The notes beneath the pieces were generated by a model. The model was given only the letters and a program-made list of their open reading frames with translations, did not search any database and was not told the origin of the DNA. From contig JAIXYN010000066.1 in the NCBI GenBank assembly GCA_027490195.1, positions 1 to 64,000 of the forward strand: a stretch of DNA of 64,000 bases, written 5' to 3'. The position numbers were made by a program, and so were the translations under genes. This DNA comes from Verrucomicrobiaceae bacterium. GTDB lineage: Bacteria > Verrucomicrobiota > Verrucomicrobiia > Verrucomicrobiales > Verrucomicrobiaceae. Below, piece by piece: positions 52,661 through 63,144 of the stretch (its first letter is position 1; every line of letters starts with the position of its first letter).

Positions 52661-54691
52661 ATGGTTCGCGGTAGTCTCCTCTTCAATTTCCTGCCTGTGA
52701 TTTTCACCTCGCCGTCCGCCTACCCCGCAGCGCTCAGCCATGGCTCATGGCCTGCGTGCACTGTCACCATAAGACCCTTTGGCAGTTCCACCGGGCGGTT
52801 GCGGCTCCTCGCCCTCGCTGCCTGCACCCTGGCACTTGCAGTTGTTTCTTCACACAGCGCAGAGCCGCCCGCCTCCTTCGTCCCCGGCACCGGCTCCCGC
52901 TCGGACGTCAAGCCCTTCTACTTCGCCATCCCCGCGCCACGTGGTCAGATCCTCGACCGCAAAGGCCGACCCCTCGCACAAAACACCACCGTACGCCGTC
53001 TCCAGTTCACCGTCCCCGCAGACAAGCGCAGCACCCTGGAGACCTACACCGCCTGGCTTCAGCAGGAAATCGACGACACCAAGGCCGACCTCCCCGTCGC
53101 ACGTCTGCCCGATGTTGATACCCTCAAACGCCACTACGAATCCCGTCGCGAGCTCCCCATTTCCGTCAGCGATGCCTTCACCCGGGACATTGTCATCGAT
53201 CCCCACAAGCACCCCCACGCCAGCCTCCGCACCGAGTACATCCGCCACTACCCGCACGCCGGCATGGCCGCTCACATCCTCGGCTACATCGCCTCAGACG
53301 GCGCACCGCCCTCCGGTCCCATCCTCCGTAGCGAGCCCCTCTGGCAGCGCACCAAAGGCGCCACCGGCCTCGAAGCCGCCTACAACAAGCAGCTCACCGG
53401 CACGGATGGCACCCTCTGCCTCATGATGGCAGATGCTGGTAGCGTTGCCTATCAGCAGGTCTTCGCCCCGCCCGCCGCCGGGCGCGATGTCGTCACCACG
53501 CTCAATCTCGAAACCCAGCGCCTTGCCGAGACTGCCCTAGCGCATTCAAAGCGCCGCTGCGCCATGGTCATCGTCGATGCCTACACCGGAGACATTCGTG
53601 CCATGGCCAGCCTCCCGCACTATGATCCCAATGCCTTCGCCGGCGGAATCTCCTCCACCGATTTCACCACCCTCACGCAGGACATCGACGGCCCGCTCTT
53701 TGATCGCGCTCTCCTCGGTACCTACCCGCCCGGCTCCATCTTCAAGCCCATCGTCGTCCTCGCTGGACTCCGCGCCGGCACCGTCGCCGCTCAGCAGGAG
53801 TTCGATTGCGGCCCCTCCCTCATGATCGACGGCCGAGAATTCGACAACTGGTCCAAGGACGATCACGGCTTCTTCAACGCACGCGCCGCTCTCATCCGCT
53901 CCTGCAATACCTACTTCTACCAGTCCGCCATCATCACGCGGGACCGCCCCATCCTCTACATGGCACACGAGTTCGGCCTCGGTGTGGCCCCCGTCCTCCC
54001 GCTGAAAGCCGCCACCGGAAATCTCCCGCAAAGCGCCCCGTCCAATCACGACCTCGCCAATCTCTCCATCGGCCAGGGTGTCACCGAGACCTCCCCTTTG
54101 CAGATGGCCATGGTCATGGCCACCTTTGCCAATGGCTCCTGTCGTCCGCGCCCCCGCCTCGTCTCCCACACGCAGTCCCAGACCGGCCAGCTTGGGGACG
54201 TCGCCATCCCATGTCGTGAGGCCCTCATGCCAGTCAGCCAGATGGATCTCGAAACTGTGCGCAGCGGCATGTTTGGCGTCGTCAATCATGCCCGGGGCAC
54301 AGGCAAAGCCGCGCGACTCAAGAAAGTCGCCGTCTTCGGCAAGACCGGCACCGCCCAGTGGGTGCTGCGAGGTGCCAAAGCCAACGTCGTATGGTTCAGC
54401 GGATTTGTTGACACCAATCCGCCCCTCGCCTTCGCCGTCATGGTCGAAGGGAATGCAGGGCAGGGGGGGCTCTCGGGCGGCGGCACCGCAGCCCCCATCA
54501 TCGCCAAAGTCCTTCACGATATCGAAGACCGCCCAGCCGCCCACGACGTCAAATTTCAGCCCGACAACGTCCCCGAAGAAAACGACCCTCTAAACCCCGA
54601 CTACAATCAGCCCCCACCCGGCTACTACGGCGGCCCTCAATACAACGAGCCCCCCGGCATCGGTGGCTTTTTCCAGCGCATCTTCCGGTAA
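52661..54691 (+). CDS. Class B penicillin-binding protein (PBP2/MrdA-like transpeptidase)
   Basis: 676 residues from ATG 52661; the first ~35 are not clearly protein and a later non-ATG start is possible. A hydrophobic segment (L-R-L-L-A-L-A-A-C-T-L-A-L-A-V-V) anchors or exports it. R-G-Q-I-L-D-R-K-G-R-P-L-A begins the dimerisation domain, and G-x-x-G-L-E-x-x-Y-N-x-x-L-T-G the linker. The transpeptidase domain has S-I-F-K with Ser359 as nucleophile, S-C-N at 414-416 and K-T-G at 561-563, all intact. The C-terminus adds a Pro/Tyr/Gly-rich tail. Role: cross-links peptidoglycan during elongation. The next gene, 96 bases on, is a GT51 enzyme with a dead transpeptidase, so the pair may act together. 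Confidence 0.88.
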   Translation: MVRGSLLFNFLPVIFTSPSAYPAALSHGSWPACTVTIRPFGSSTGRLRLLALAACTLALAVVSSHSAEPPASFVPGTGSRSDVKPFYFAIPAPRGQILDRKGRPLAQNTTVRRLQFTVPADKRSTLETYTAWLQQEIDDTKADLPVARLPDVDTLKRHYESRRELPISVSDAFTRDIVIDPHKHPHASLRTEYIRHYPHAGMAAHILGYIASDGAPPSGPILRSEPLWQRTKGATGLEAAYNKQLTGTDGTLCLMMADAGSVAYQQVFAPPAAGRDVVTTLNLETQRLAETALAHSKRRCAMVIVDAYTGDIRAMASLPHYDPNAFAGGISSTDFTTLTQDIDGPLFDRALLGTYPPGSIFKPIVVLAGLRAGTVAAQQEFDCGPSLMIDGREFDNWSKDDHGFFNARAALIRSCNTYFYQSAIITRDRPILYMAHEFGLGVAPVLPLKAATGNLPQSAPSNHDLANLSIGQGVTETSPLQMAMVMATFANGSCRPRPRLVSHTQSQTGQLGDVAIPCREALMPVSQMDLETVRSGMFGVVNHARGTGKAARLKKVAVFGKTGTAQWVLRGAKANVVWFSGFVDTNPPLAFAVMVEGNAGQGGLSGGGTAAPIIAKVLHDIEDRPAAHDVKFQPDNVPEENDPLNPDYNQPPPGYYGGPQYNEPPGIGGFFQRIFR

Positions 54692-54695
54692 CCAA

Positions 54696-54775
54696 TCCTC
54701 CTCTTCCTCCTCCTCCTTTTTTCTCTGAATCCGAGAGTAAGAGGAAGAGTAGGAGGAAGAGGAAGATAAAAAAGC
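54696..54775. repeat. Polypyrimidine-polypurine hairpin between the PBP genes
   Basis: A CT-only arm (about 54697-54720) and a GA-only arm (54741-54765) can pair, with a CTCT/(G)AGAG inner stem around GAATCC. It may fold in the mRNA, attenuate the downstream gene, or form a triplex; no T-run at the right place for a plus-strand terminator. Confidence 0.55.
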
Positions 54776-54787
54776 TCCATTCGCCTC

Positions 54788-56851
54788 ATGCCCGCCCTCC
54801 GCGCCCTCCTCACCTCCCTCCGCGCACGCTACCTCCGCCTCCCGCGCTGGTTCCGTTTCATCGGCGTCACCTGCGCCGTGCTCGCGCTTATCGGCCTCAT
54901 CACCTTCGGCTTCATCTGGCACCACTACTCCACCCATGCCGCCACCTACGACATGGCATCCCTCACGCGCGGCCAGAATGAAACCCTCATCAAAGACGCC
55001 CAAGGCGCGCCCATCGGCAGTGCCAGCGAGATCGAGCGCGAGATCGTCACCCTCAATGACGTCCCCATCACTCTCGTCCAAGCCATCATCGCCACGGAGG
55101 ACGCCCGCTTCTTCTCCCACCCCGGCTACGACATCATCGGCCTCACCCGCGCCGCCGTGAAAAACTTCACCGCCAAAGGCATCCGTCAGGGCGGCAGCAC
55201 CATCACCCAGCAGCTCGCCCGCAATGCCTTTGGCCTCCAAGGCCGTAGCTACGAGCGCAAGATCACCGAGATATTCCTCGCCATGCGCATCGAGCGTGAA
55301 TACACCAAAGAGCAGATCCTCACCCATTACATCAATCGCATCTACCTCGGCACCGGCTGCAGCGGCGTTGGGGCTGCCGCCCGCACCTACTTCCGCAAAG
55401 ACGTCCACGACATCTCGCTCGTCGAATCCGCCACCTTGGCCGGCATCATCAAGGCCCCCGTCGCCTTCTCCCCCATCACCCAGCCCGCCCTCGCCAAACA
55501 AAAGCGCGATCTCACCCTCCAGCGCATGGCAGAGACCGGCAGCATCACCGAAGCCGAAGCCACCGCCGCACGCGCCCAGCCCGTCACCGTGAGCCATGAC
55601 AAAAGCCGCGTCCGCACCGGCTACATGCTCGCCGCCGCGCGCGCCGAATTCCAGCGCCTCGGCCTCAAGCCCGGCACACCTCCCGAGATGACCATGTCCC
55701 TCCGTCTCGACTGGCAGCACAAACTCGACACCCTAGTCCGCAAGCATCTCGACACCCTCGCTCCCAAAGATAAAGACCTCCAGGGTGCCGTCATCGTCCT
55801 GGACAACACCACTGGGGCCATCCTCGCCATGCAGGGTGGGCGTGACTTCACCACCAGCCCCTTCAATCGCGCCCTCGAAGGCATCCGCCCACCCGGCACC
55901 GCCTTTCTTCCCCTCGTTTACGCCGCTGCCCTCACCGCCCAGCCAGACATCACCGATGCCCCCCAGATCGACGGCCCCCTCGACAACAAGCAGGCCATGA
56001 TCGGCGGGCTCACCGGCACCCTTGGAGAATGGGGAGCCGAAGGCGAACCCGTGGCCTACACCGGCACCACCATCACGCCCAAGCAGTCCCTACTGGAAGG
56101 CCGCACCGCCGCCACCGTCCGCCTCGGTTATCAGGTCGGGCTGGAGCCCCTCCGATCCGCCATCACTCGCTGCGGCTTCACCAATCCCCTCCGCACCGAA
56201 GCCGCCTTCACCCTTGGCCAGAGCCCGCTTCGCCTCGTCGAGCTCGCTCGTGCCTTCACCGCCATCGCCAATGACGGTCGCCAGTGCGCCGCCCCGCATC
56301 TCCTCCTCACCCCCATCATCCGCAGCACCGAAGTCTTCACGCCCGCCGCCGTCTCCCATGTGCGCAATACCCTCATCACCGGCATGGAGCGCCCCGAATA
56401 CCGCAAGCCCCTCCTCGCCCACGGCCTCGCCAACAAAAGCATCGCTGGCTACGGCGGCATCACTTACGACCGCACCGACGCCTGGTTCATCGGCTCTGAT
56501 CGCGAGCGCACCTGCCTCGTCTGGATCGGGCATGACAAAGACATCCCCATCAGCGCCAACACTACCGCCTCCACCGCAGCGCTCCCACTATGGGCCGCCG
56601 TCTTCGCCATGGTCACCGAAGGCAAGACCAAAGGCTGGGAAGGCAAAGCACCCGCCTCACAGCTCCTCGCCACACCGCCCCGCGCTCTCTTCGTCGAAGG
56701 CGAAGCCCGCGTCATACCTGTGACGCCAGTGTCCAGCGTCGTCCTCGGCAAAGACCCCTACCAAAGCACCAGCGCCCCCGGTGGCGTACCCGCCGCAATC
56801 CCACTTCCTCAAGACGACTTTGTCCCCAAAGCCATCCCTGTGAAGCAGTAG
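54788..56851 (+). CDS. Class A-type PBP: GT51 glycosyltransferase with degenerate transpeptidase domain
   Basis: 687 residues. One transmembrane helix at ~25-45. The GT51 domain is intact: Glu104 in A-T-E-D-A-R-F-F-S-H-P-G, then Q-G-G-S-T-I-T-Q-Q-L-A-R-N (134-146) and the R-K-x-x-E region with an R-I-Y-L-G-T segment. The transpeptidase domain is recognisable from ~340 (R-P-P-G-T-A-F-L-P; L-V-E-L-A-R-A-F-T-A-I-A-N; D-A-W-F-I-G). All three motifs are lost: S-x-x-K is T-A-F-L (Thr371, Leu374), S-x-N is G-R-T (438-440), and K-T-G is K-S-I (550-552). It should polymerise glycan strands but not cross-link or bind penicillin covalently. The active class B PBP just upstream could supply cross-linking. 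Confidence 0.88.
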   Translation: MPALRALLTSLRARYLRLPRWFRFIGVTCAVLALIGLITFGFIWHHYSTHAATYDMASLTRGQNETLIKDAQGAPIGSASEIEREIVTLNDVPITLVQAIIATEDARFFSHPGYDIIGLTRAAVKNFTAKGIRQGGSTITQQLARNAFGLQGRSYERKITEIFLAMRIEREYTKEQILTHYINRIYLGTGCSGVGAAARTYFRKDVHDISLVESATLAGIIKAPVAFSPITQPALAKQKRDLTLQRMAETGSITEAEATAARAQPVTVSHDKSRVRTGYMLAAARAEFQRLGLKPGTPPEMTMSLRLDWQHKLDTLVRKHLDTLAPKDKDLQGAVIVLDNTTGAILAMQGGRDFTTSPFNRALEGIRPPGTAFLPLVYAAALTAQPDITDAPQIDGPLDNKQAMIGGLTGTLGEWGAEGEPVAYTGTTITPKQSLLEGRTAATVRLGYQVGLEPLRSAITRCGFTNPLRTEAAFTLGQSPLRLVELARAFTAIANDGRQCAAPHLLLTPIIRSTEVFTPAAVSHVRNTLITGMERPEYRKPLLAHGLANKSIAGYGGITYDRTDAWFIGSDRERTCLVWIGHDKDIPISANTTASTAALPLWAAVFAMVTEGKTKGWEGKAPASQLLATPPRALFVEGEARVIPVTPVSSVVLGKDPYQSTSAPGGVPAAIPLPQDDFVPKAIPVKQ

Positions 56852-57160: not shown

Positions 57161-59647
57161 TCACTTTTTAGGCTTTTGAAACCAGCCCTTCATTTTACCG
57201 AAGAGACCCTGCTTGGGTTCTGCGGCGGCATTCGGCGGCGGGAGGAGATCGTTGGGTTTGTCTTTACGCTCTGGTAAGGCGCGAGGGACGATTTCTTCGG
57301 GCATGCTGGCGAACTGCTCAGTTTGCTCATAAGTGCTCATGTTGTCGCCAATTTTAGCCTGCTCCAGCATGTGGTCTGCCGAGTCGGAGAGAATACGAGG
57401 CTGCACAAAGATCATCATCTCACGGCGCTCTTTTTTGATGTTGGTGTTGCCAAAGAGGTGCTTGAGAACGGGGATGCGAACGAGAAACGGCAGCCCGCGT
57501 TTGTTGTTGGTGTCACGCTCGGTGATGAGGCCGCCGAGCATGGCGGTGGCTTGATCGGGGATGATCAAGCTGTTGTGCATGCCCTGTTCGGAAATATTGG
57601 GAACTTGGTTGCCGCTGATGGTGGTGAAGCCGGAGACATCATTGTTCTGCTGCTTGAATTCGAGCATGATTTCATTGTCGTTGAAGATGTGCGCCGTGAT
57701 GTCGAGTTGCAGACGCACGGGAATGTACTGGGTGGTGGAGGAGAACCCACCGCCAACCACACCGCTTGTAAAGCTCTGCCCGGCGATGGCAATCTGCTGG
57801 CCGATGTAGATGCTGGCGGGCTGGTGGTTCAGTGCGGTAATGGTCGGCTGCTGCAGGACATGGAAACGTTGCGTGCTTTCAAGCGTCTGGAGGAAGACGT
57901 TGAGGTTCTTGTTAATCTGGCCATAGGCGGTGAGACCACCCAGCGCGGCAGGGCCACCTGCACCGAGAAAGCCCGCGATGTCATTTAGATTGGCGGGATT
58001 GGCAAAGGCAGTGCCCTGAGTGTTGAGCACGCCGCCAACCAGGCCGTTGTCGCCGACTTTTTTGAGCGACTGAATCCAATCGAGACCGAAGTTGAAGTTA
58101 TCGCCGAGCGTGAACTCACCAATGATGGCAGAGAGCAAAATCTGACGCGGACGCACGTCCATTTCATCCGCGAGTTCTTGCAGTGCCTTGATTTGATCGG
58201 GCGGACCGGTGGCGATGAATTTGGAACTGGCGGAATCGGCGATGACGAAGGTGTTGCCGATCAATACACTGATGGGTTTTTTGGTGACTTCCAATGGCGT
58301 GATGCTGCCAGAGCCAAAGGAGTTGCTGGCAGATTGCCCGCCAATGCCCATCCCCGAACTGCCACCGAATCCAGAGCTGGACCCGGAACTGCTGCCGAAG
58401 GAGTTGTTGGTGGGCGAGGTTGGAGTGTTGGTTGTGTTCTGCTGGGGAAGGCCGCTTGCTGCGGTGTTTTGCGAAGTTCGCTGCAACGCCTTTTCGGCGA
58501 GGTTGAGAAAGACAGTGAGGTCGAGGTACTTGAGCCGGCGTGAATAGTAACGAGAGGAGGGAGATTCCGCATCCAGGTCAGTGATGAAGTTGTCGATGCG
58601 CCGCATGTCCACAGGGCGAGCGACGATGATGAGGCTGTTGGTTCGTTCGATGGCCTCGATGACTGGCTTGAAGGCCTCGGGGGTGGCCCCGGCTCCACTG
58701 CCCATGGTGACGGAGACTGGTGCGGCTGGAGCAGATCCTGGAGCGGTCGGTGGCCTGGCCGTGCCGCCGGTTTTTGGTGTGGCAGAACGATTGCTGGAAC
58801 CATCGCCAAGGCCGAGCAGGCTATTGAGCTGCTCCACCACTTTCGCAGCATCCGCACGCTCAAGCCGAACTGTTTTGTGGATGGTTTCCATGGGGGGGGA
58901 ATCCACCTGCTGGGCCAGCTCCAGGTAAGCGCGGATGGTCTGAGACGCCTCAGTGATGATCAATGACTGGCCGTTGGCCACGGCTAGGATTTTTCCATAC
59001 GCATGCAGGGGGATGAGCTGCTGAAAGGCGGTGGATGCCTCCTCCGCCTGGAGGTAGTTGAGTTGAATGACATGAGATACCACCTGATCGTTTGTCGGCA
59101 GATCTTCAGCTCGCAGGACGAGCGGCACGCCTTGGGTGGAAGGATTGGTGCCCTGTTCGGCAGCGATGAGTTTGAACAGATTTTCCCCGCTGGGCACCAG
59201 CACGAACCCGTGCATCAGCAGGCCTTTTTCGATGATGGTGCGGTATTCTTCGTCGCTGAACTCACCCGGGACTTCAATGGTGACAGTAGCGTTTTCCAGA
59301 CCACGATCTTTGAGAACGCGGCGTCCCGTCACTCGAAAATACTCTCCAATCACCTCTGAGAGCGGTGTGGCGGTGAAACCGATGATATTTTTGCCTGAGG
59401 AGGGTTGAGGCGCGGCAGTTGACGTAGGGGGGGGGCTGGCAGGTGGAGGCAGTGGCGCGGGAGCGGGAGCGCGTCCTGATGAAGGCACGTTGAACTGGGG
59501 GGGCGCTGGTAAGGAAGGATTTACTGGCGCAGTCAATTGAGGGCGGTTTCGGGGAGGTGGTACAGGGGCGATCTGCGCCGCCAGGAATTCCGGAATCAGG
59601 CAGAGTGAGGCAGAAAAAAGCAGAGCCAATTTGCAGAACAGGTTCAT
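57161..59647 (-). CDS. gspD: Type II secretion secretin (GspD-like)
   Basis: 828 residues from ATG 59647, with a signal peptide at 1-24. A Pro-rich linker (25-85) leads to N0/N1-type domains (I-I-G-F-T-A-T-P-L-S-E-V-I-G near 92), repeated N domains (V-I-Q-L-N-Y-L-Q-A-E-E-A; T-V-R-L-E-R-A-D-A-A-K-V-V), and a Ser/Gly-rich insert. The secretin barrel starts near 500 and contains V-L-Q-Q-P-T-I-T-A-L-N and the P-x-L-x-x-L-F-G-x-T segment near 740. It forms the outer-membrane pore for folded exoproteins. Last gene of the minus-strand gsp cluster; 21 bases separate it from the previous gene. The C-terminal tail is basic. Confidence 0.88.
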   Translation of the reverse strand: MNLFCKLALLFSASLCLIPEFLAAQIAPVPPPRNRPQLTAPVNPSLPAPPQFNVPSSGRAPAPAPLPPPASPPPTSTAAPQPSSGKNIIGFTATPLSEVIGEYFRVTGRRVLKDRGLENATVTIEVPGEFSDEEYRTIIEKGLLMHGFVLVPSGENLFKLIAAEQGTNPSTQGVPLVLRAEDLPTNDQVVSHVIQLNYLQAEEASTAFQQLIPLHAYGKILAVANGQSLIITEASQTIRAYLELAQQVDSPPMETIHKTVRLERADAAKVVEQLNSLLGLGDGSSNRSATPKTGGTARPPTAPGSAPAAPVSVTMGSGAGATPEAFKPVIEAIERTNSLIIVARPVDMRRIDNFITDLDAESPSSRYYSRRLKYLDLTVFLNLAEKALQRTSQNTAASGLPQQNTTNTPTSPTNNSFGSSSGSSSGFGGSSGMGIGGQSASNSFGSGSITPLEVTKKPISVLIGNTFVIADSASSKFIATGPPDQIKALQELADEMDVRPRQILLSAIIGEFTLGDNFNFGLDWIQSLKKVGDNGLVGGVLNTQGTAFANPANLNDIAGFLGAGGPAALGGLTAYGQINKNLNVFLQTLESTQRFHVLQQPTITALNHQPASIYIGQQIAIAGQSFTSGVVGGGFSSTTQYIPVRLQLDITAHIFNDNEIMLEFKQQNNDVSGFTTISGNQVPNISEQGMHNSLIIPDQATAMLGGLITERDTNNKRGLPFLVRIPVLKHLFGNTNIKKERREMMIFVQPRILSDSADHMLEQAKIGDNMSTYEQTEQFASMPEEIVPRALPERKDKPNDLLPPPNAAAEPKQGLFGKMKGWFQKPKK

Positions 59648-59668
59648 GGGGGAAGCGGGTGCAGAAGA

Positions 59669-60430
59669 TTACTGAGAAATGACTGGGGAGTTGAGAGACG
59701 GGCCAACCATTCTGCGGCGTACTGGCACTGGGGGAGCGCCTTGCTCATTAGCCAATGGCGACACAGGCGGTGAGGAGGGAGAAGGGTTTACCGAATTGAG
59801 TGTGCCTGAAGTAGGAACCAAGCTTGGCCTGCCTGGATTGTAAGGAGCAGCCTGTGAGTGGGGCTGTGAAGAACCATGCGCGGTGGCCGATACGGCGGTC
59901 GGTGCGGTGGCCTTGCCCGGCTGAGAGGGGTTTTGTGGCAAAGGAATTTGCAACGGTGCACCAAGCTGCTGGCGGGACTGCTGCATTTGAGGGGCCTTGG
60001 ACATTTCGGCTGCAGCCATTTGTTTGACGTAACTGTCGTTGTAGCGGATGGTGGCCGTCTCGGTGCCAAGGGTGACTTCGGCCACCACGTCCTTGCGACT
60101 GGAGCCCAATTTGACGCTGCTGAGTTTCATGCCATTGGCAGCGGGCTGTCCCTGTTTGAGGCTGATGCGTTCGTTGGTTTTCGTATTGACGATGATGATC
60201 GTGGGATCTTTGGAGTCGCCAAAGTAGGTGCCGATGGTGAGATCCAATGCGAAGGAGATTTGATCCACGACGGGAGCCACTGTTTTCAAGGTGAATGGAT
60301 TCTTGTTCCAGCCAGCCTCGTAGCGTTGCACGTCATGTGGGACGGGCGGCTGGAAGCTCATTGCTTCCTGCTGCGCGTATGCCAGTCCTGCCATCAGGAA
60401 CAGGAGGATTGGAAGGCCTCCATATTTCAT
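59669..60430 (-). CDS. Periplasmic GspC/PilP-like protein
   Basis: 253 residues with a signal peptide (I-L-L-F-L-M-A-G-L-A-Y-A). A homology-region-like domain spans ~40-130: W-N-K-N-P-F-T-L-K, then the Y-F-G-D-S-K-D-P-T-I-I-I-V-N-T-K-T segment and G-Q-P-A-A-N-G-M-K-L, as in GspC HR and PilP domains that bind the secretin N0 domain. The rest is Pro/Ser/Gln-rich and disordered. It sits between the GspM-like and GspD genes, with a 4-base ATGA overlap upstream. A diverged paralogue lies at 2759-3307. Symbol withheld because GspC normally has a transmembrane helix rather than a signal peptide. Confidence 0.65.
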   Translation of the reverse strand: MKYGGLPILLFLMAGLAYAQQEAMSFQPPVPHDVQRYEAGWNKNPFTLKTVAPVVDQISFALDLTIGTYFGDSKDPTIIIVNTKTNERISLKQGQPAANGMKLSSVKLGSSRKDVVAEVTLGTETATIRYNDSYVKQMAAAEMSKAPQMQQSRQQLGAPLQIPLPQNPSQPGKATAPTAVSATAHGSSQPHSQAAPYNPGRPSLVPTSGTLNSVNPSPSSPPVSPLANEQGAPPVPVRRRMVGPSLNSPVISQ

Positions 60431-60981
60431 GAGCCAGCAGCCTCCGGGGATGGCTCCTGCGCCACGGCGGGTGCATGAAGCTGGCTGATGTGGATCATGG
60501 TAACGACGTCTGCCGGATTGGCGGCATCAGGCGTCATTTTCAAATAGGAGACCACCCTGAAAGCTGCGGGAGCCAGCAGACCATGCATCCAGCGGAAGAC
60601 GGATGCCATTGGCCCTCGAACGGTCAGCGTCACTCCCACTTCGCGGTAATAGGCTGCGGTCACTGGCTCATGCAGTTGTTGCTTCTGAACCGTCAATCCC
60701 TGAGCGGTGGCAGATTTCAGCAGCATTTCCAGCAGTTCTTCACTGGCAAGGTTTTCGCTGGTCATTGCTGGCTGCGCAGATTGCAGCCAGTCGAGGCGCT
60801 GCTTCCACATTTCCGCCTCGGTCAACATCGCCCGCCCCTCCATCTGCTGCAGTTCGAGCGTTTGTTGACGCCGCTCAATCGCACGCTGCTGCCGCAACAG
60901 ATACTGCGAGAGGACCACACCCATGCACAGGGCAGTCAGAACGCCAAGAATCATGATCAGCCTGAGTTCACTGGCCTTCAT
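60427..60981 (-). CDS. GspM/PilO-like T2SS protein
   Basis: ATG 60981 gives 184 residues. One N-terminal transmembrane helix (L-I-M-I-L-G-V-L-T-A-L-C-M-G-V-V-L) is followed by a Gln/Arg/Glu-rich coiled coil (~28-70), then a ferredoxin-like fold ending I-S-Q-L-H-A-P-A-V, the plan of GspM/PilO. It should pair with the GspL-like protein in the inner-membrane platform. It overlaps the GspL-like gene by 14 bases and the following gene by 4. Confidence 0.75.
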   Translation of the reverse strand: MKASELRLIMILGVLTALCMGVVLSQYLLRQQRAIERRQQTLELQQMEGRAMLTEAEMWKQRLDWLQSAQPAMTSENLASEELLEMLLKSATAQGLTVQKQQLHEPVTAAYYREVGVTLTVRGPMASVFRWMHGLLAPAAFRVVSYLKMTPDAANPADVVTMIHISQLHAPAVAQEPSPEAAGS

Positions 60982-62179
60982 GCTCAAGCCCTCCAGTAAG
61001 TGTGCCTTGGGCACGGAATTCTGCGCGATTATCTTCGCGAATCGTGGGCACCGGGCACGTCCAGGAATAACGCTGAAGTGGTATGCACGCGGCCAGCTGA
61101 TCCTTGAAGGCGAGCGCCTGATTTACCGTCGCGGCTTCACCACTGACGATGAGCTTGCCGCCGTCGACTTGAAATTCCTTGAGGCGGATGCCTTCCTGAG
61201 GCAGCAGCGAGACGATCTGATGAAACAGCTCCACCGGATACAAATCAGGATTGATCGCCGCTTCCATTTCTTGCCAGCGGTTCTGTGCCTCGCGCACGAG
61301 ATCGATTTCCGGTTGCGCGTTGTTCATGACGACAGCCGCGTGATTCAACTGCGATGTGCGCCATTGCAACCGCAGCCACCAGGCACCGAAAAAGCAGAGG
61401 TAAACCAGCGCTGCTGCTGCAAGGATGAGCCACTGATTCTGGCGGTGTTTTTGCTGTTGCCGCCGCACGGCCACCTGCACTGGTAGCAGGCCGCTGGATT
61501 CTGCAGGAGGACGCGGGTCAGGACGTTTCTCCTTGATCACGGAGGCAGCTTCAAACAGGCAGGCGAGCTGCGGGGCGAAATCGGTTTCAACGTGCGTCCA
61601 CAGATGGATGGCGTCCACCTGGGCAAAGTTGATGAAGCCGTGTGTTTGCAACGTGGCGCACATGTCACGAAGTTCAAAGGCCGCGTCCACATCCAAACTG
61701 CGTGCTGTGAGTACTCCGAGATGCAGCAGTTTTGCTTCATGGGTGAATGCCACGACATGGCGCCCGAGCTCCTTCCACAGGGCAATGCCATTGTCAGGCA
61801 GGGGGAGCATGCGGGCGCTGGGCTCAAACTGACCATGAACGCACTGCTCCCAGCCAGAAAAGTCCTCAGCCAGCGCCAGAGTGCCCACCAGAGCCTGTCT
61901 GCCCTTGCGCAGCACCGGCCAGTTTAGCCAGAGACGCGAACCGCTTTCGTTTTTCATCCCCAGACCTTCCCAGCGAAGATCAACGGTTTCATTGAGTGCC
62001 TCCTGCGTGAGAGACCAGAAGGGTGCGCTGTCAAAGGCGAGTGCTTCGACCCCCATCAGACCATCGTGGACTGCATGCTCTGCAGGCATCCAAACACCAT
62101 CGGCTCCGCACTGCCAGGCTTCACGAGATTCCTCTCCCGGAAAGCTGAGCGCCTGCTGTGATGGACGTTGAAAAACCAT
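60968..62179 (-). CDS. GspL-like T2SS assembly protein
   Basis: ATG 62179 gives 403 residues (frame open to 62224). Residues 1-~225 form a cytoplasmic actin-like domain without clear ATP motifs. A Pro/Arg/Gln-rich linker leads to one transmembrane helix (~254-272, L-I-L-A-A-A-A-L-V-Y-L-C-F-F-G-A-W). A coiled coil follows (~280-310), then a periplasmic ferredoxin-like domain (V-D-G-G-K-L-I-V-S-G-E-A-A-T-V). This matches GspL, equivalent to a fused PilM-PilN, which links the secretion ATPase to the periplasmic apparatus. No ATPase gene is present in the window. Confidence 0.72.
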   Translation of the reverse strand: MVFQRPSQQALSFPGEESREAWQCGADGVWMPAEHAVHDGLMGVEALAFDSAPFWSLTQEALNETVDLRWEGLGMKNESGSRLWLNWPVLRKGRQALVGTLALAEDFSGWEQCVHGQFEPSARMLPLPDNGIALWKELGRHVVAFTHEAKLLHLGVLTARSLDVDAAFELRDMCATLQTHGFINFAQVDAIHLWTHVETDFAPQLACLFEAASVIKEKRPDPRPPAESSGLLPVQVAVRRQQQKHRQNQWLILAAAALVYLCFFGAWWLRLQWRTSQLNHAAVVMNNAQPEIDLVREAQNRWQEMEAAINPDLYPVELFHQIVSLLPQEGIRLKEFQVDGGKLIVSGEAATVNQALAFKDQLAACIPLQRYSWTCPVPTIREDNRAEFRAQGTLTGGLEHEGQ

Positions 62180-62184
62180 AAATC

Positions 62185-63144
62185 TCAAAGCCGTTGTGCT
62201 CCTTTCACAGGAAATTCGCGCCACTCGGTGATGTGAGGCGTGCCGCCATTCTTACTCATGATGACTGCGATGCCGCAGCGTGAATCTCCTGCGGTGCCGA
62301 TGCTCTCAATGCGCAGTGTCGCCCCCTGAAGCGTGAGCAAGGGGAGGATGTCTGCTCCCTGTTGGCCGGTGATGCCGAGCAGTGACAGTGCTTCATTCAG
62401 ACTTTTAAGCGGCTGGTCATCCTCGGTCTGCTGCAGACCATCCAGACCATTGCGCTGCTGCACAAGCAGATTGGCATTCGCCAGCGAAGCGCCTGTTGCC
62501 GCAGCCAGCACTTCGGCAGAGGCCATGTTCACATCCAACTGGCCGGTGCCCCGGAGAGTGAAAAACGAACGCCAGTCTGGTTTTACCGACTGGATTTCGT
62601 CTGCACGCGCCACCAGATCCACCTCATCGAAGCTGCTGAATTTCCGATTAAACGGCCGGTCTGAAAACCCCAGATGCTCGTAATCCAGCTTTTCCGCACT
62701 GTCAGGCCGACGCTTCAAGTCATCGGCGTCCGTCCAGTCCATCAATGTAGCCGTGATGCCCTGCGCATCTGCCGCCGATATGCCCCAAGACTGCAATAGC
62801 CGTTCCAGTACAGGTAGATGTTGCTCTGTAAGCAAAGCATTGAGATTCAACCGGCTCTCTTCGGTGCCAAGCACGACTTCAAAGCGCTCCACGCCGGAAA
62901 CACTTCGCCGCAGCAGTGGATCGCCTACCTTGATCACGGGATGCGCCGCCACGGCAATGCCCATTTCCGCAAGCTGGCGGGCGCGTATCATGCCATATCG
63001 TGCCTGCTGCATTTCGCCATGCTGGTGTGAAACGGACACTGTCAAGATGACCAAAAACGAGAGCATGGCCACAAAGCACAAAACAGCCAGCAAGACAGAT
63101 CCGGCATTTGTCGGTGTGGGGCGGTTTTGAAGAGGGTTTGTCAC
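62185..63144 (-). CDS. gspK: GspK-like minor pseudopilin/T2SS protein
   Basis: Starts at GTG 63144 (an adjacent TTG at 63147 is also possible); 320 residues. A short basic leader with T-N-A-G-S-V-L-L-A-V-L-C-F-V-A-M-L-S-F-L-V-I-L is a type IV prepilin-like signal with the hydrophobic helix. The body has L-N-L-N-A-L, then W-T-D-A-D-D (about residue 138) and F-x-x-x-D-E-V, followed by the V-N-(M)-A-S-A-E-V-L helix-hairpin region, matching GspK's three-domain minor pseudopilin. It lies 5 bases before the GspL-like gene and probably heads the transcript. Confidence 0.82.
   Translation of the reverse strand: MTNPLQNRPTPTNAGSVLLAVLCFVAMLSFLVILTVSVSHQHGEMQQARYGMIRARQLAEMGIAVAAHPVIKVGDPLLRRSVSGVERFEVVLGTEESRLNLNALLTEQHLPVLERLLQSWGISAADAQGITATLMDWTDADDLKRRPDSAEKLDYEHLGFSDRPFNRKFSSFDEVDLVARADEIQSVKPDWRSFFTLRGTGQLDVNMASAEVLAAATGASLANANLLVQQRNGLDGLQQTEDDQPLKSLNEALSLLGITGQQGADILPLLTLQGATLRIESIGTAGDSRCGIAVIMSKNGGTPHITEWREFPVKGAQRL

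Follow-up and report, generated by a model that had tools for sequence, protein, structure and literature searches.

Introduction

Class B penicillin-binding proteins (PBPs) normally work with SEDS proteins. In Staphylococcus aureus under beta-lactam, the glycosyltransferase (GT) of the blocked class A enzyme PBP2 acts together with the transpeptidase (TP) of the class B enzyme PBP2a.

Pairs of class A and class B enzymes are described in passages of PMC4632607: E. coli PBP2 binds PBP1A and stimulates its GT activity, and pneumococcal PBP2b and PBP2x are active with the class A enzyme PBP2A carrying a mutationally inactivated TP. The same passages contain a counter-case, E. coli PBP2 being inactive together with a TPase-inactive PBP1A. 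The E. coli PBP1A-PBP2 and pneumococcal PBP2A-PBP2b/2x precedents make a mechanism plausible in which a class A protein docks a class B enzyme. Akkermansia has been classed as 'PG-classical' for retaining an aPBP, according to passages of PMC8406291 that do not mention lost motifs. The class A PBPs of V. spinosum are tabulated in PMC4803751, in passages that carry no remark on the active site, and excerpts of PMC5814848 discuss class A presence with no mention of lost motifs. Among the matches listed in a literature search, neither a natural class A PBP with a dead TP nor a three-module fusion was described.

Here we analyse a locus from a Verrucomicrobiaceae bacterium (GCA_027490195.1, contig JAIXYN010000066.1; the window is the whole stretch of 64,000 nucleotides analysed), in which a class A PBP that has lost all three TP motifs is encoded next to a class B PBP with intact motifs. 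With a probability of about 0.65, the two would form a two-part peptidoglycan synthase consisting of a GT51 class A protein and a class B transpeptidase docked by its dead TP domain; we infer the interaction and both activities from the genomic evidence given below.

Results

An intact GT51 domain is joined to a transpeptidase domain without its motifs

The class A gene and its parts are located in the window as follows.

54788..56851, + strand: class A PBP gene, 687 aa, ATG start; predicted membrane helix, GT51 domain with intact motifs and motif-less transpeptidase domain
54845..54943, + strand: N-terminal helix, residues 20-52, a helix in the AlphaFold model that is taken as the putative membrane anchor
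55007..55528, + strand: GT51 glycosyltransferase domain, residues 74-247, with E104 and GGST present
55778..56623, + strand: pseudo-transpeptidase domain, approximately residues 331-612 (Pfam, AlphaFold model and structure match; invariant Ser/Lys absent in 15 pair proteins)
55898..55909, + strand: SxxK position, T371-A-F-L374 (alignment)
56099..56107, + strand: SxN position, G438-R-T440 (alignment)
56450..56458, + strand: KTG position, Y555-G-G557 (phmmer and MAFFT alignment), with KSI 5 residues upstream

The GT51 domain (Transgly, PF00912) is matched with 202 bits at residues 74-247. Its residues E104, D105, G135, S137, T138 and Q142 are invariant across 50 aligned class A proteins, which bears out a preliminary description of this DNA that had reported the catalytic Glu104 and the Q-G-G-S-T motif to be intact. 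The Transpeptidase domain (PF00905) is matched weakly, with 30 bits at residues 333-532. The protein thus has two features of a bifunctional class A PBP, namely GT51 with catalytic Glu and GGST and the penicillin-binding TP fold, and it has TAFL, GRT and YGG instead of SxxK, SxN and KTG.

The loss of all three TP motifs next to an intact GT51 domain had already been noted, and both parts of that claim hold. Alignment confirmed that S-x-x-K is replaced by T371-A-F-L374 and S-x-N by G438-R-T440, and R-P-P-G (367-370) and D-A-W-F-I-G (564-569) are present as reported. The third motif had been placed in the wrong register, at K550-S-I552. AGKTGTTNDxxDAWF aligns with AGYGGITYDRTDAWF, both in phmmer comparisons with 4oon and 3udf and in a MAFFT alignment with an intact class A PBP of the same genome (L002), and therefore Y555-G-G557 is the KTG position; KTG is still lost. 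The alignment rejects KSI (550-552) as the KTG equivalent.

Comparison of homologues at the motif positions, which had been proposed as a check, showed that the losses are common to the 15 pair proteins aligned. All 15 have Leu at position 374 and Tyr, Phe or Trp at position 555; position 371 holds Thr in 14 and, in G011, Ile. A hidden Ser/Lys dyad, which would contradict the preliminary description, was sought in residues 331-612 of the same proteins and not a single Ser or Lys was found to be invariant there. S357 and S479 are conserved in 14 of 15, and K550, S551 and K584 in 13 of 15; K550 and S551 fall outside the KTG register. The class A motif alignment omitted rows that failed the GT51 pattern or gave no match; motifs of L168, L230, L233, L234 and L242 were read separately, and L180 lies outside the set read.

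Structure prediction, the other check proposed, yielded an AlphaFold model (mean pLDDT 84.9, pTM 0.72) in which the TP fold is retained and matches PBP1a and PBP1b structures. VIA-align superimposed 329 residues on PBP1a 4oon (Z 40.4, rmsd 2.3) and 469 residues on Acinetobacter baumannii PBP1a 3ue1 (Z 43.0, rmsd 9.2). PDB entry 7u4h is labelled Chlamydia trachomatis PBP1A; this organism label may be wrong and is in conflict with a passage of PMC8406291, according to which Chlamydia reportedly has no class A PBPs.

The dead domain is under purifying selection

The dN/dS values (NG86) of the window gene against four relatives are similar for the TP domain (0.07-0.16) and for GT51 (0.13-0.16), those of the TP domain being slightly higher in three of the four comparisons. 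The dead TP domain is under purifying selection. Amino-acid identity of the pair class A proteins is 70-94% within the genus and drops to 71% in G057, 44% in G059 and 35% in G131, and the motif losses are common to proteins down to this last one. The earlier suggestion that the dead domain has been retained as a fold by selection is thus supported by TP values close to those of GT51 and by relatives with the same loss.

The adjacent gene encodes a class B PBP and the pair is conserved

Partner binding had been suspected in the preliminary description. The gene directly upstream encodes the likely partner, a class B PBP that had been missed, and it would be this protein that the dead domain binds.

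52661..54691, + strand: partner class B PBP gene, PBP2/MrdA-like, 676 aa from the first start codon, with SIFK, SCN and KTG intact
52799..52861, + strand: signal-peptide-like segment of the class B PBP, residues 47-67 (ending in VVSSHSA, then E68; inspection of the N-terminus)
54692..54787, + strand: 96-bp intergenic spacer with a long hairpin and no T-run (folding)

The protein has the domains of a class B PBP (PF03717, PBP_dimer, 67.7 bits; PF00905, 177 bits), and SxxK, SxN and KTG are present in all 16 partner class B PBPs read (13 plus L179, L181 and L182). Its N-terminus has a short hydrophobic stretch with a small-x-small site behind it, and a W-R-I-Q-V-like juxtamembrane segment is absent. 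Ordinary class B PBPs of the phylum have an anchor followed by W-R-I-Q-V, whereas the N-termini of the pair class B proteins resemble signal peptides instead. Judged by these N-termini, the pair class B PBP seems to be exported without a membrane anchor of its own. A C-terminal end resembling G-F-F-x-R/K-L/I-F (window 54650-54691) occurs in several of 14 aligned class B proteins, including that of the window, L008 and L007, and an intact class A PBP of the same genome has a similar end.

Within the genus, both genes lie side by side on one contig in 14 of 48 genomes; in three others one gene is seen at a contig end, and 31 show neither, several of these assemblies being incomplete. Ten further genomes carry the adjacent pair (G057, G059, G131, G147, G114, G187, G069, G203, G183 and G175), which was thus seen in 24 genomes from three families (f1, f2 and f3). 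In G121 (L091) the class A gene is at a contig end and its neighbour lies beyond the assembly. Among the 14 genus pairs, the assemblies show two broken ones: the class A gene is frameshifted in G036, and in G043 the class B gene runs into a truncated class A gene. At the latter locus (C83:7805-9984, L029) the match to the class B protein ends at residue 413, approximately where that to the class A protein begins with residue 310; this junction is either a pair-joining deletion or a misassembly.

Spacing was determined for 15 loci (14 genes if L082 and L188 are the same): the genes overlap by 4 bp in two, are 6 bp apart in three and at most 204 bp apart, and two longer overlaps depend on start codon choice. 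The spacer hairpin in the window has a folding energy of -40.4 kcal/mol (z -3.8), and a T-run is absent downstream. A comparable, imperfect inverted repeat lies in the G030 (L082) spacer, and L187 has a stretch rich in CTCGTC.

No third conserved neighbour was found when five neighbour proteins of the window were compared with the ORFs of 18 related loci (7.5-15 kb); in the same search the class A gene was recovered in 18 of 18 loci and the class B gene in 17 of 18. Window 57161-62224 (- strand) adjoins the pair on the opposite strand and contains what we take to be a secretin-like gene and apparent pilus or secretion assembly genes; 57161-59647 and 59669-60430 are unmatched in the 18 related loci.

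The class A and class B trees have the same deep order within the pair clade. All trees are of the quick type with SH-aLRT support only. One class A tree omitted 19 near-duplicate loci and rows shorter than 500 aa, and its motif columns were masked; the class B tree omitted L138 and, through a motif filter, L145, L179 and L228.

A longer class A type lacks SxxK and co-occurs with a related class B type

When named genomes were scanned with the TP domain of the window protein, 13 loci were returned, 12 of them verrucomicrobial and one a weak Chloroflexi match at 25%; relatives of the window gene that bear a name come from Prosthecobacter and other verrucomicrobial MAGs. The class A proteins closest to that of the window are approximately 850 aa long. 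Intact SxxK was found in none of 81 genomes read (one protein each), and since these proteins were chosen as matches to the window TP domain, the count describes this type and not class A PBPs at large. The first position of the motif is Thr in 80 and Ser in one, the fourth is Lys in 11 and another residue in 70, and KTG or KSG is retained in most of the proteins read. Family f2, which comprises many small genomes and probably is Akkermansiaceae, carries the 850-aa type (with TAIL, TSIL, TALL or TAFL), and all six f2 genomes checked have, apart from it, another class A gene whose motifs are intact. In two trees the pair clade of the window is grouped with the f3 pair proteins, beside the 850-aa group (SH-aLRT 98 and 96). 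Five f3 proteins of this clade (G121, G114, G187, G069 and G203) have kept Ser, SxN and KSG and have lost Lys alone.

Outside the pair, the L008 type is the class B type nearest to the partner; 63 of the 189 genomes of the class have a protein of this type that scores at least 412 bits, and the next protein scores 357. All 63 genomes have a class A TP match, and 62 of them carry the 850-aa SxxK-less protein, in both cases among the matches listed; the latter figure rests on frame length and rank in the class search, with the motif itself read for 39 genomes. In the exception, G532, the L008 type, which is the putatively secreted one, is accompanied by an intact protein as the sole class A TP match. 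Both are absent, again among the matches listed, from 101 of the 189 genomes; these co-occurrence counts are uncorrected for ancestry. The search within the order considered the best 5 candidates per genome and that within the class the best 10.

The genome of the window encodes two class A PBPs without SxxK (that of the window and an 850-aa protein on contig C80) and three intact ones. Its class B PBPs comprise two of the anchor type (L006 and L007) and two of the signal-peptide type (L008 and that of the window). The two SEDS genes (PF01098) are located on contigs C41 and C33 and the pair on C13, so that the pair class B gene has no SEDS gene next to it. These numbers fit a one-to-one pairing of class A and class B proteins. 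The 850-aa protein and its presumed partner are encoded on different contigs, and their co-occurrence therefore may only reflect shared ancestry. A further protein of 1259 aa (L010, contig C74) has a PF00905 match to a PBP-like TP domain with the aligned motifs AAYT, SCN and RTG; we assume that it is perhaps an M56/BlaR1-like protein.

Both modules occur in single polypeptides

Altogether, 12 of the 189 class genomes have, among the matches listed, a single ORF of 1261-1426 aa that joins class A and class B modules, two of these ORFs ending at a contig end. A class A TP match without the L008 type occurs in 25 genomes, and these 12 are among them. All six fusions scanned with Pfam contain PF00912, PF03717 and PF00905 (224-241 bits), in the order GT51, PBP_dimer and strong TP. 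The inner TP, located between GT51 and PBP_dimer, is without SxxK in all 12 (e.g., ENGALLQP, GNK, MPGYSEG); three of them have Ser at the first position and lack the Lys. The terminal TP has kept SxxK and KTG or KSG in all 12 and matches the S-x-N-T pattern in nine, those of L170, L172 and L175 being unmatched. Among the matches listed for 288 genomes of the phylum (best 2 candidates per genome), a sample that left out the 12 fusion-bearing genomes, no full-length fusion match was found.

The class A parts of the fusions fall beside two intact class A proteins and not with the pair (SH-aLRT 94), and the motif loss in the fusions therefore looks independent; the 11 fused class B parts on the tree form a clade of their own. 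Judging from these sequences, the combination of a dead class A TP with a live class B TP seems to have two separate origins. We regard this recurrence as the strongest evidence that both modules work together.

Discussion

A separate crosslinking enzyme encoded next door and relatives in which both are fused suggest that crosslinking was handed to the partner. In the two-part synthase proposed here, the membrane-anchored class A GT51 would polymerise lipid II. The TP domain of this protein would no longer be reactive and would be kept as a folded docking module, which might hold the exported class B PBP beside the growing glycan strand. The class B PBP, seemingly anchorless, would then crosslink the nascent strand. 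In favour of this reading are the loss of all three motifs, the selection on the dead domain, the conserved adjacency, the intact motifs of the partner, the agreeing trees, the fusions and the co-occurrence of the 850-aa and L008 types. The 96-bp spacer with its strong hairpin speaks against this reading, as it might separate expression of the two genes. So do the E. coli counter-case, the unlinked genes of the 850-aa type and its presumed partner, the exception G532, the two broken genus pairs, the five f3 proteins that have lost Lys alone, the slightly higher TP values in three of four dN/dS comparisons and the unmatched S-x-N-T pattern of three fusions.

Could the class A gene simply be decaying? 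Its distribution is patchy, with at least one gene of the pair in 17 of 48 genus genomes, and the G036 and G043 copies are broken. The low TP-domain dN/dS and open frames with identical losses across genera and families make decay a negligible prospect; decay in one strain, with intact homologues in close relatives, does not apply and is rejected, as the relatives read, in the genus and beyond, also lack the motifs. Activity of the TP domain by other chemistry, for example with Thr371 as nucleophile, is very improbable. Of the 15 pair proteins 14 have Thr at this position, as do 80 of the 81 proteins of the 850-aa type, among which 11 retain the Lys and read TxxK, but Ile replaces Thr in G011 and Ala or Tyr stands there in nine of 12 fusions; moreover, the Lys is Leu in every pair protein, KTG is lost and the domain has no invariant Ser or Lys in these 15 proteins.

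A dead TP domain might also serve as a regulatory sensor, controlling GT51 allosterically on binding of stem peptides or of another regulator, with the class B PBP acting separately. Purifying selection on the domain, conserved stretches such as LDNxxAMxGGxxGxLGEWG and the KTG or KSG of most 850-aa relatives read, which could still bind ligands, agree with such a role. We consider it unlikely, since it leaves the conserved adjacency, the fusions and the matching trees unexplained and KTG is also gone in the window clade. The pair might likewise be only a unit of co-expression, in which the class B PBP partners RodA or FtsW and the class A protein is a plain GT. SEDS proteins are the usual partners of class B PBPs and this genome has two SEDS genes. 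These lie on other contigs than the pair, though, and the anchor-type L006 and L007 are enough for two SEDS proteins; the pair class B protein looks like one with a signal peptide and lacks the W-R-I-Q-V-like segment, and the fusions join a class B TP to GT51, all of which makes mere co-expression rather improbable.

If the pair works as we propose for the two-part synthase, polymerisation and crosslinking are naturally separated here and the coupling of polymerase and transpeptidase becomes directly testable; beta-lactams should then not target the GT-carrying protein. The presence of a class A PBP gene is usually taken to mean a bifunctional enzyme, and the verrucomicrobial type described here is SxxK-less in 81 of 81 proteins read. 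Tentatively, and at somewhat less than even odds, the arrangement might represent a third peptidoglycan synthase architecture besides bifunctional class A PBPs and SEDS-class B pairs, in which a GT51 protein would dock an anchorless exported class B PBP through its TP domain. It would have arisen at least twice in the phylum, as separate genes (the unlinked 850-aa and the adjacent-pair types) and as a three-module polypeptide.

Compared with the PBP1A family TIGR02074, the window protein has the same domain order, GT51 residues and TP fold; it differs in lacking the three TP motifs, in its score of 376 bits against a cut-off of 509 bits and in the adjoining class B gene. With SEDS-class B systems (RodA-PBP2, FtsW-FtsI) the proposed synthase would share a polymerase and a separate class B transpeptidase acting as a unit, although the polymerase here is a GT51 with a dead TP and the class B protein is without the usual anchor segment. 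GT51 is the sole likely activity of the window protein, as in the monofunctional enzymes MtgA and SgtB, which are defined by having no TP domain; here a full TP fold is kept under selection. In the S. aureus PBP2/PBP2a case the class A TP is blocked by a drug, whereas here it is blocked by evolution. In the E. coli PBP1A-PBP2 and pneumococcal PBP2A-PBP2b/2x pairs a class A GTase likewise contacts or feeds a class B TPase, but the class A TP of those pairs, as far as the passages of PMC4632607 describe it, is naturally active or was inactivated by engineered mutation.
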